Of a stretch of 57,984 nt of DNA, positions 39,772 through 42,133 are shown piece after piece. Every line of letters starts with the position of its first letter. Position 1 is the first letter of the stretch. Under the pieces are notes generated by a model. The model searched no databases, was not told where the DNA came from, and worked only from the letters and a program-made list of their open reading frames with translations. Made by a program: the position numbers and the translations under genes. Source of the DNA: Saprospirales bacterium (GTDB lineage Bacteria; Bacteroidota; Bacteroidia; Chitinophagales; Saprospiraceae); assembly GCA_947459365.1 (NCBI GenBank), contig CANHDG010000002.1, forward strand, positions 1 to 57,984. Reading direction: 5' to 3'.

Positions 39772-40108
39772 ACTTCTCTAATCGTTGCCAGCGGTTTTGG
39801 AAAGCCGCTGGCAACCCTTTCCTACCGTAAAAAACCTACCAATTCCGCCAAAATAGCTCCGTCAATGATTATATAAAAACCAAACTATAAGATTGTTTAT
39901 TAACCCAATACTAGCTAAAACAATTATTTATTTTAAAACTACAAACAAATATCCAAATATAAATGTTTAAGACCCATCAGTGACATTTCCGAGATCTGAA
40001 GCCCAGCCTATAGCCCTATTTCAATACCATACCAATAGTGGAATCCAGTACTTACACAGACCATCGGGTCAGTTATTCTCCTTCATCATTATCCTCGCCA
40101 TTGAAAGT
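39772..40108. other. AT-rich intergenic region before the lycopene cyclase/Blh fusion
   Basis: It starts with a hairpin (39784-39815) and continues as AT-rich sequence with many A- and T-tracts (39850-39970). A degenerate -7 box TATCCTCG at 40090-40097 lies 11 bases before the ATG. The fusion frame extends upstream to a GTG at 39980, but that stretch is not protein-like. Confidence 0.5.
39784..39815 (+). terminator. Terminator-like hairpin after the regulator
   Basis: An 11-bp perfect GC-rich stem (39784-39794 with 39805-39815) and 10-base loop lie 12 bases after the regulator stop. A U-run is missing (CCTTTCC follows), so termination may be partial and read-through into the fusion gene is possible. 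Confidence 0.6.
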
Positions 40109-42133
40109 ATGCCTGATAAAGCGCAACACACTGAGATTGATTTCCTTTTCATTGGTGCAGGGGCAGGCGCATCCTTACTGTTGATGCAGCTGGAAAAAGC
40201 AGATCTGCTTCAAGGAAAAAACATCCTGATAATAGACCCCGAACTACAGCAATTAACTGAAAGGACGTTCTGCTTCTGGGCCGAACCAAAAGAACCGATC
40301 GCATCGGAACTAAAACGCCTCATTAACCACCAATGGATCTCCATCAATACGCCCAAGCATCAACCCCAGTCAATCGCCCCACTGAACTATTTTCACCTTT
40401 CTGGCAAATCCTTGCAAGAAGAACGAACGAGGCTCATTCACTCCTATCAGATTAAATGTCACTCCAACTTTGTCTCCAATATATACTCCACACCCGAAGG
40501 CGTACGAGTGCAGGCCGAAAAGGAAACATGGATAGCCAAGATCGTTTTCGATAGTCGACCACCCAATTTTTTACCTCCCCGACCAAACGAATCATGCCTC
40601 TACCAATCATTCTATGGATACTTTATACAGTTAGAAAACCCACTAAAAAACGCATCCTCCATCGACCTCATGGACTTTGAGATAGATCAAATGGGGAACA
40701 CCCAGTTTATGTATGTCCTTACTTTTACGACCAATCAATTGTTAGTAGAAGTAACTCGATTTGGCCAAGCTATTTTATCTAAAGACGAGGGGATACCGCT
40801 ACTTGAGAAATACATTCGTCAGCGATTTGGCGAATTTAAACTCCTTCGAACAGAATTTGGGTGCATCCCCATGAGTAGTACCCAACTGAATAAACAGACC
40901 TTACCTGGGGTAATAAAACTGGGAGGAGCCGCAGGGGCAATCAAACCAAGCACCGGTTATGCGTTTAAAAGAATGTTTAACCAAGCTAAACAGATTGTAC
41001 AACACCTATCACAGCAGCAACCCATCTCCCCTCCATTTCCTAATAATAGGTTCAAGTTTTATGATCGATTGCTACTACTCATCCTGAAAAGAGAACCGCA
41101 ACATGGAAAAAGAATTTTTCAAAACCTGTTTACTAAAAACAGAACTCAAAAAGTCCTCTCATTTCTGGATGAACAAACAACCCTTACACAAGATCTCAAA
41201 CTATTTGCAAGCCTACCCTTGAAGCCTTTTTTAGTTGCTAGCTTGCTGGATATTAGAACGCGATTTAGGCACCTTCAAAAACCTGTTCTACTATTACTCC
41301 TCACATTAGGCCTTCTTCTCCTACAATACTTGTCAGACAACTCCTTCCAGACCATTCAGCTACTACTGGGAGGAGTTGGATTATTATTAGTTGGAATACC
41401 ACACGGAGCCATTGATCATCTATTAAAACAGGGATCTCTCCATTGGAAAATAGACCTGTTTTTTATTGCAAAGTACCTGGGGACTGCAGCTTTTTACCTA
41501 CTATTTTGGCTTTTCTCACCACAGTTGGCGCTGGCTCTTTTTCTTCTGTACTCCGCTTGGCATTTTGGACAAACAGATATTCAAGAGTGGCAGCCAAGCT
41601 CCTATAAGCCAGCAAAAAGTTTGATTTGGGGGAGTACACTTCTAGCTATTCTTTTATTAGGCCATGCATCTGAAAGCAATAATATTCTTCAAAATATGAG
41701 CACGCTCCAGATCTCTCTTTCAGATACAAAAGGCGTATTTGTGGCGGTGACCCTAGCCTCTCTAAGTGCCCTCTGGGGAATACTGGAAAAGCGACCGGCC
41801 ATTGTTCTGAGCGCTGGCACGCTACTTCTCAGTACACAACTTCCTTTGCTCACTGCATTTGGACTATATTTTATTGGACAACACAGTCTTAACGGGTGGT
41901 CACATCTCCAAAAGGGCTTAAACGCCTCCTCAAAATCCCTTTTCCTGCACGCACTGCCCTTCACATCAGGCGCCATATTCTTGTTTGTAACACTCCTTCT
42001 TTGCCTAGAAAAAGGCTGGATAGCAGCATTTAACCAGCATTGGGTAACTGCTTTTTTTGTTTTTATTTCCTGTATCAGTTTCCCCCACGTCTTGGCCATG
42101 AACCAATATTATGCTGAAAAAGGACCTTTTTGA
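40109..42133 (+). CDS. Fused lycopene cyclase (CrtY-type) and Brp/Blh beta-carotene dioxygenase
   Basis: A 674-residue bifunctional protein. Residues 1 to about 388 are a CrtY-type lycopene beta-cyclase: FAD-binding IDFLFIGAGAGASLLL, ERTFCFWAEP, and GGAAGAIKPSTGYAF near 272-286. Residues about 390-674 are a Brp/Blh-type membrane dioxygenase with several hydrophobic helices and the expected iron-ligand histidines: H432 and H437 in GIPHGAIDHLL, H485 in YSAWHFGQTD, H592 in IGQHSLNGW, and H660 in SFPHVLAMN. Together they would turn lycopene into beta-carotene and then retinal. In most genomes these are two genes. The reading frame runs through the junction (380-395) with no stop. Start at the ATG at 40109. 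No rhodopsin, crtE, crtB or crtI is in the window. Confidence 0.9.
   Translation: MPDKAQHTEIDFLFIGAGAGASLLLMQLEKADLLQGKNILIIDPELQQLTERTFCFWAEPKEPIASELKRLINHQWISINTPKHQPQSIAPLNYFHLSGKSLQEERTRLIHSYQIKCHSNFVSNIYSTPEGVRVQAEKETWIAKIVFDSRPPNFLPPRPNESCLYQSFYGYFIQLENPLKNASSIDLMDFEIDQMGNTQFMYVLTFTTNQLLVEVTRFGQAILSKDEGIPLLEKYIRQRFGEFKLLRTEFGCIPMSSTQLNKQTLPGVIKLGGAAGAIKPSTGYAFKRMFNQAKQIVQHLSQQQPISPPFPNNRFKFYDRLLLLILKREPQHGKRIFQNLFTKNRTQKVLSFLDEQTTLTQDLKLFASLPLKPFLVASLLDIRTRFRHLQKPVLLLLLTLGLLLLQYLSDNSFQTIQLLLGGVGLLLVGIPHGAIDHLLKQGSLHWKIDLFFIAKYLGTAAFYLLFWLFSPQLALALFLLYSAWHFGQTDIQEWQPSSYKPAKSLIWGSTLLAILLLGHASESNNILQNMSTLQISLSDTKGVFVAVTLASLSALWGILEKRPAIVLSAGTLLLSTQLPLLTAFGLYFIGQHSLNGWSHLQKGLNASSKSLFLHALPFTSGAIFLFVTLLLCLEKGWIAAFNQHWVTAFFVFISCISFPHVLAMNQYYAEKGPF

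Follow-up and report, generated by a model that had tools for sequence, protein, structure and literature searches.

Light-driven rhodopsin pumps use retinal as their pigment, which is made from lycopene in two consecutive steps with beta-carotene as the intermediate. In the window, i.e., the whole stretch of 57,984 nucleotides from a Saprospirales bacterium that was analysed here, one gene on the forward strand appeared to carry the enzymes of both steps, a lycopene cyclase (CrtY) and a Brp/Blh dioxygenase (Blh). This raises the questions of whether the two genes are joined, how far such a fusion has spread, how the host came by it and what use the cell makes of it. Our results make it very probable that the gene encodes a bifunctional enzyme that originated once, through the end-to-end joining of crtY and blh, and spread in the Bacteroidota, often in company with a rhodopsin gene.

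Architecture and active sites of the CrtY-Blh protein

The features of the locus, with the basis of each, are as follows.

40109..42133 (+): crtY-blh fusion gene, 674 aa (open frame, profile matches, alignment of relatives)
40139..41230 (+): lycopene cyclase half (CrtY-type, FAD-binding), residues 11-374 (PF05834; GxG at residues 16-18)
40748..40750 (+): codon of Glu214, counterpart of the LIEDT glutamate in Pantoea CrtY (alignment)
41231..41392 (+): junction, residues 375-428, linker-free, with the end of the cyclase and the beginning of Blh (spacing comparison)
41375..42103 (+): Blh dioxygenase half, residues 423-665 (PF15461 and TIGR03753 matches)
41402..41404 (+): codon of His432 (PHGAxDH), putative iron ligand (conservation)
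41561..41563 (+): codon of His485 (WHFG), putative iron ligand (conservation)
41882..41884 (+): codon of His592 (QHS), putative iron ligand (conservation)
42086..42088 (+): codon of His660 (PH), putative iron ligand (conservation)

The frame runs from the ATG at 40109 to the TGA at 42133 through 674 codons, with no internal stop in the window sequence. A GTG at 39980 in the same frame offers a longer alternative start. The first possible start is no more than about 15 residues away from 40109 in 26 of 28 aligned relatives, and comes later than the equivalent position in L051 and L057. The N-terminal half matched nearly the whole Pfam Lycopene_cycl profile (PF05834, residues 11-374) at 137.6 bits against a cut-off of 23.4, and the C-terminal half nearly the whole BCD profile (PF15461, residues 423-665) at 125.3 bits against 28, while the NCBIfam Brp/Blh model (TIGR03753) gave 135 bits against 95. 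The single-frame fusion proposed in an earlier note on this DNA is thus confirmed, as is its Blh assignment, for which the note had suggested the PF15461 search. Both Pfam families were also matched by all 29 fused proteins scanned, and chance is not an issue, because a frame of 674 codons carries two strong family matches.

The NCBIfam CrtY models matched the cyclase half below their cut-offs (TIGR01790, 87 vs. 209.5 bits). The unfused cyclase of the host likewise fell below the NCBIfam CrtY cut-off (71 bits), suggesting that the low score reflects the reach of these models rather than a broken enzyme. Since TIGR03753 was the sole NCBIfam model over its cut-off, annotation by the Blh name alone would hide the cyclase half. 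An AlphaFold2 model of the fusion from a two-row alignment had a pLDDT of 37.5, too low to be of use, and the search for relatives of solved structure gave one weak match, to 2-polyprenyl-6-methoxyphenol 4-hydroxylase (E 0.088).

In the cyclase half, Glu214 was conserved in 35/35 fused and 25/25 unfused cyclases, and its counterpart in Pantoea CrtY, Glu196 of the LIEDT motif, is presumably the catalytic acid. The FAD-motif glycines Gly16 and Gly18 were found in 32/35 and 33/35 fused rows, respectively, the remaining rows being gaps (all CrtY counts omit L097). In the Blh half, His432, His485, His592, and His660 were present in 34/34 fused proteins, and the putative histidine ligands are intact, as the earlier note had read them; among unfused Blh proteins the last three occurred in 25/25 and His432 in 24/25, with one gap (histidine counts omit the truncated L069 as well as L026 and L097-L099). 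The published iron ligands of the 66A03 Blh enzyme are reportedly His21, His78, His188, and His192, two of them four residues apart. A counterpart of the second histidine of that pair, expected at 596, was absent in all 34 fused and 25 unfused proteins compared. Judged by conservation, the four histidines are compatible with a four-His iron site that differs in one ligand from the list just given, and both halves of the fusion look catalytic.

Several residues set the fused proteins apart from the unfused ones, namely Trp597 (34/34 fused vs. 0/25 unfused) and His519 (34/34 vs. 11/25) in Blh, and Arg217 (35/35 vs. 2/25) and Gln199 (35/35 vs. 3/25) in CrtY. These fused-specific residues may come from common descent or from contact between the halves. 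As the fused Blh is a distinct clade with its own signature, its chemistry could differ, and one half might be a non-catalytic remnant in a protein that performs one reaction only; with Glu214, the four histidines, Gly16, and Gly18 retained in the fused rows, we consider this very unlikely.

The junction was compared in 29 of the 35 fused frames, from 12 family codes and one named genome, and all 29 aligned proteins run through it in one frame. From the last conserved cyclase Phe to the first conserved Blh Gly they have 47-54 residues (median 51). The corresponding medians are 11 residues for the unfused cyclase tail (n = 25) and 42 for the unfused Blh head (n = 24), and the two proteins are therefore joined end to end. 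An unfused crtY lies beside 7 of 26 unfused Blh loci in the class sample (L005, L008, L017, L018, L019, L022, and L030) and beside 8 of 10 Blh loci in the host's own family (L100-L105, L107, and L108), and crtY comes first in all 15 pairs. Counted from the first possible starts, the overlap is 4 to 29 bases in the class-sample pairs; in the own-family pairs the two frames share 4 to 11 bases or are separated by 2-3 bases. The cyclase-first order and the near-zero linker, which the earlier note had thought noteworthy, are thus explained, because both copy the order and the spacing of unfused crtY-blh pairs.

The same closeness means that a lost stop could, on paper, have fused two neighbouring genes by a frameshift or an assembly error at the junction, an objection that the earlier note had itself raised. 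No such error was found. The fusion occurs as 33 one-frame copies in separate assemblies, with the alignment continuous across the junction and one clade for each half, and an artefact is so improbable that it was rejected.

Distribution and origin of the fusion

A BCD match was present in 72 of 395 genomes of the host's class, and the genome search that the earlier note had advised, based on an open frame and BLAST with each half, found the fusion in one frame in 33 of these 72, host included. Of 396 genomes from the host's order, 70 had a BCD match and only four a full fused frame (the host G000, G730, G709, and G439); a further, 5'-cut fusion is likely in G471, with 52% identity to fused Blh. 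The fusion is therefore unusual within the host's own order and common across the class.

Among the 33 genomes, G208 has lost the first residues of the protein at a contig end, and in three genomes of family f13 the first ATG/GTG/TTG comes 14-27 residues late. In these three (L051, L057, and L061) that codon follows the FAD-motif region and the frame is open further upstream; translation may begin at a rarer start codon or further downstream. A 34th fusion (G371) has its Blh half cut by a contig end, and another was found in a named genome, a Sediminibacterium MAG (L034), with 36% identity to the window protein. The 113 pattern matches on viral contigs contained no relative of the fusion. Of 34 matching plasmid records, the 20 listed all matched on the cyclase half, and none covers 80% of the query.

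Two pairs of trees were compared. When all rows were included, the fused label required 2 changes on the CrtY tree and 5 on the Blh tree, and four unfused rows fell inside the fused clade. L097 (1057-3167, contig C30 of G291, a fragmented assembly) is a fusion with a frameshift inside its cyclase half, due to either sequencing error or recent decay, and L098 and L099 are copies cut by contig ends. L026 (1477-2325, contig C146 of G224) is a solitary Blh that branches inside the fused clade; no cyclase lies upstream of it, and the cyclase half has apparently been lost secondarily. Another Blh adjoins the rhodopsin gene of G224.

The second pair of trees left out these four rows and the truncated L069, and added relatives from the host's family (six CrtY, ten Blh) and three more fusions. 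The 37 fused rows, from 14 family codes and the Sediminibacterium MAG, then formed one side of a branch in the Blh tree (100/99, 100% of 200 bootstrap trees) and in the CrtY tree (93/85, 93% bootstrap), a single-clade result that depends on the omission of those five rows. The distance matrices of the two halves agreed among the 37 fusions (Mantel r 0.87, with 0/5000 permutations as high). The fusion arose once and then spread through 14 family codes. The unfused cyclases closest to the fused clade, from the crtY-blh pairs L019, L022, and L030, joined it at 100/97, and the Blh proteins of these pairs do not adjoin fused Blh in the tree.

The host's fusion grouped with the fusions of families f12, f21, f22, f61, and f2, and not with the unfused genes found in the host's family. 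The host's rhodopsin, in contrast, resembles the rhodopsins of its own family, as read by eye from the motifs. The simplest reading is that the host gained the fusion horizontally; an old retention would be the less simple one. The contig itself fits the host genome (3.15 Mb, 311 contigs, 89.66% complete), since full-length relatives of the window MnmE, with 62-70% identity, occur in 17 of 20 other genomes of the genus searched. An AraC-type regulator lies upstream of the fusion; a phosphoesterase gene, mnmE, a DHDPS-family gene, and an acyl-CoA synthetase-like gene lie downstream on the opposite strand. The eight window neighbours scanned included no carotenoid or rhodopsin gene, and one window protein carries a type IX secretion tail, which, like the Sediminibacterium homologue, points to Bacteroidota. 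The insertion site of the fusion was not traceable, only mnmE being matched when its surroundings in seven genus genomes were compared with 11 window ORFs.

Rhodopsin and the supply of retinal

A rhodopsin gene was present in 32 of the 33 fused genomes, the exception (G236) being 84% complete in about 320 contigs. Four further fused genomes included three with a rhodopsin; in the fourth, a member of the host's family (G709; fusion on contig C123, L117), no rhodopsin match was found in a genome 97% complete. Rhodopsin presence is uninformative for the fusion as such, because nearly all genomes with unfused Blh have one too (68 of the 72 Blh genomes overall). The position of the gene is more informative. 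Rhodopsin adjoins the fusion in 20 of 33 genomes (upstream in 17 and downstream in 2, in both cases on the strand of the fusion, and divergent in 1; the distances are approximate, as they assume a cyclase part of 1250 bases), and the two are on different contigs in 12 of 33, host included. Around the 33 fused loci other than the window, L034 included, with up to four ORFs taken per locus, rhodopsins made up 21 of 127 nearest-neighbour ORFs and any other family at most 4, and the families matched by 3 or more of these ORFs included no carotenoid enzyme. The usual module thus consists of two genes, for rhodopsin and the retinal enzyme.

The earlier note had predicted a rhodopsin elsewhere in the host, and this proved correct. 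The host rhodopsin (C97:69-725; L002, 51-788) has 245 aa and lies on a contig other than that of the fusion, which speaks against the explanation preferred here insofar as the two do not adjoin in the host. Read by eye, it has a D-T-E motif, typical of proton pumps, and the helix-G lysine. Helix E has the pattern W-G-x-x-S-T, the Gly of which, as aligned by eye, would be the position (Gly156) linked to carotenoid antennas (PMC13043013). Contig C97 stops 50 bases beyond this gene. A closely similar rhodopsin gene in the congeneric genome G635 (L119) has an unfused blh 108 bases downstream, and the host may therefore own a second blh, hidden in the assembly gap beside its rhodopsin, a possibility that also tells against the explanation preferred here. 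Such a coexistence is already seen in G063, which has, on contigs C1 and C2, the fusion and a second, unfused BCD match, shorter and divergent (79 bits), that adjoins rhodopsin.

From family knowledge, we infer both enzymatic activities of the fusion. At the membrane, lycopene would be cyclised to beta-carotene by the N-terminal, flavin-dependent half; the C-terminal half, an iron dioxygenase embedded in the membrane, would then cleave this product to retinal, which would serve as the chromophore of the cell's rhodopsin. The protein very probably arose from a crtY followed by a blh with overlapping or nearly touching ends, and spread among the Bacteroidota often (20/33 genomes) as a two-gene cassette with rhodopsin. 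Fusion would set a 1:1 ratio of the activities and hold both active sites together. A cell that makes lycopene would need two genes instead of three to become a rhodopsin phototroph, and the single gene may be convenient for engineered retinal production.

Direct passage of beta-carotene between the halves, which the earlier note had expected of the fusion, is a hypothesis. The fusion was the only PF05834 match above 100 bits in 27 of 34 fused genomes (the 33 one-frame genomes and G371), and beta-carotene must then be able to leave the enzyme if cyclic xanthophylls are made with it. This argues for the view that fusion brings co-expression and co-location in the membrane only, with beta-carotene leaving freely and the fused cyclase also feeding other carotenoids; in those 27 genomes it would have to serve every CrtY-made one. 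The lone Blh of L026 also suggests that the halves are separable. We regard this view, which departs from the preferred explanation on channelling alone, as evenly balanced between right and wrong. On the other side, 7 of the 34, including the host, have a second PF05834 cyclase (G000, G391, G115, G108, G097, G243, and G371). These separate cyclases fall outside the fused clade in the all-row trees, and six plus the host's do so again in the pruned CrtY tree, which would let the fused cyclase be dedicated. A dedicated retinal branch is plausible in such genomes. A portable cassette of rhodopsin and a lycopene-to-retinal enzyme that channels its intermediate, run by hosts with a second cyclase as an insulated retinal branch, is a tentative and rather doubtful extension of this idea. 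With this gene, it could readily be tested whether joining two enzymes channels an intermediate dissolved in the membrane.

The carotenoid genes of the host touch on the same point. The host genome had one BCD match (the fusion), one rhodopsin, and two PF05834 matches, the fusion and the separate cyclase on contig C3. CrtD was over its cut-off (619 vs. 500 bits), which would point to acyclic-end carotenoids made in parallel. CrtI is cut by a contig end, and phytoene synthase was not found in this 89.66% complete genome, a point against the preferred explanation; the missing gene may lie in the assembly gap into which the CrtI frame runs. For four PF04116 proteins, the match to an ornithine-lipid hydroxylase model stayed under the cut-off, and no carotenoid hydroxylase model matched at E 1e-5.

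Comparison with known systems

The earlier note had considered that the same fusion might already be well described in related genomes. It is indeed frequent there, and no description of a bacterial CrtY-Blh fusion appeared among the matches listed from the open-licence literature. The closest systems described among those matches are a four-domain protein of the protist T. trahens and the CrtIB fusion. The T. trahens protein unites a lycopene cyclase with a Blh at its C-terminus, similar to the fusion here, and has been proposed to make retinal directly; it differs in being eukaryotic, in having a cyclase of the CrtYc/d type and in carrying two more domains. CrtIB was found in rhodopsin operons of Verrucomicrobiota and is called a first report by its authors (PMC10284914). 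It is similar in that carotenoid enzymes are fused in a rhodopsin gene cluster, but it joins phytoene desaturase and synthase, whereas the fusion here joins cyclase and Blh (PMC10284914). Bacteroidota rhodopsin clusters with crtY and blh as separate genes contain the same families in the same order, presumably for the same task; the ends of the two genes overlap or leave 2-3 bases between them, in place of one fused frame, and the unfused cyclases of three such pairs (L019, L022, and L030) are the sister group of the fused cyclases.
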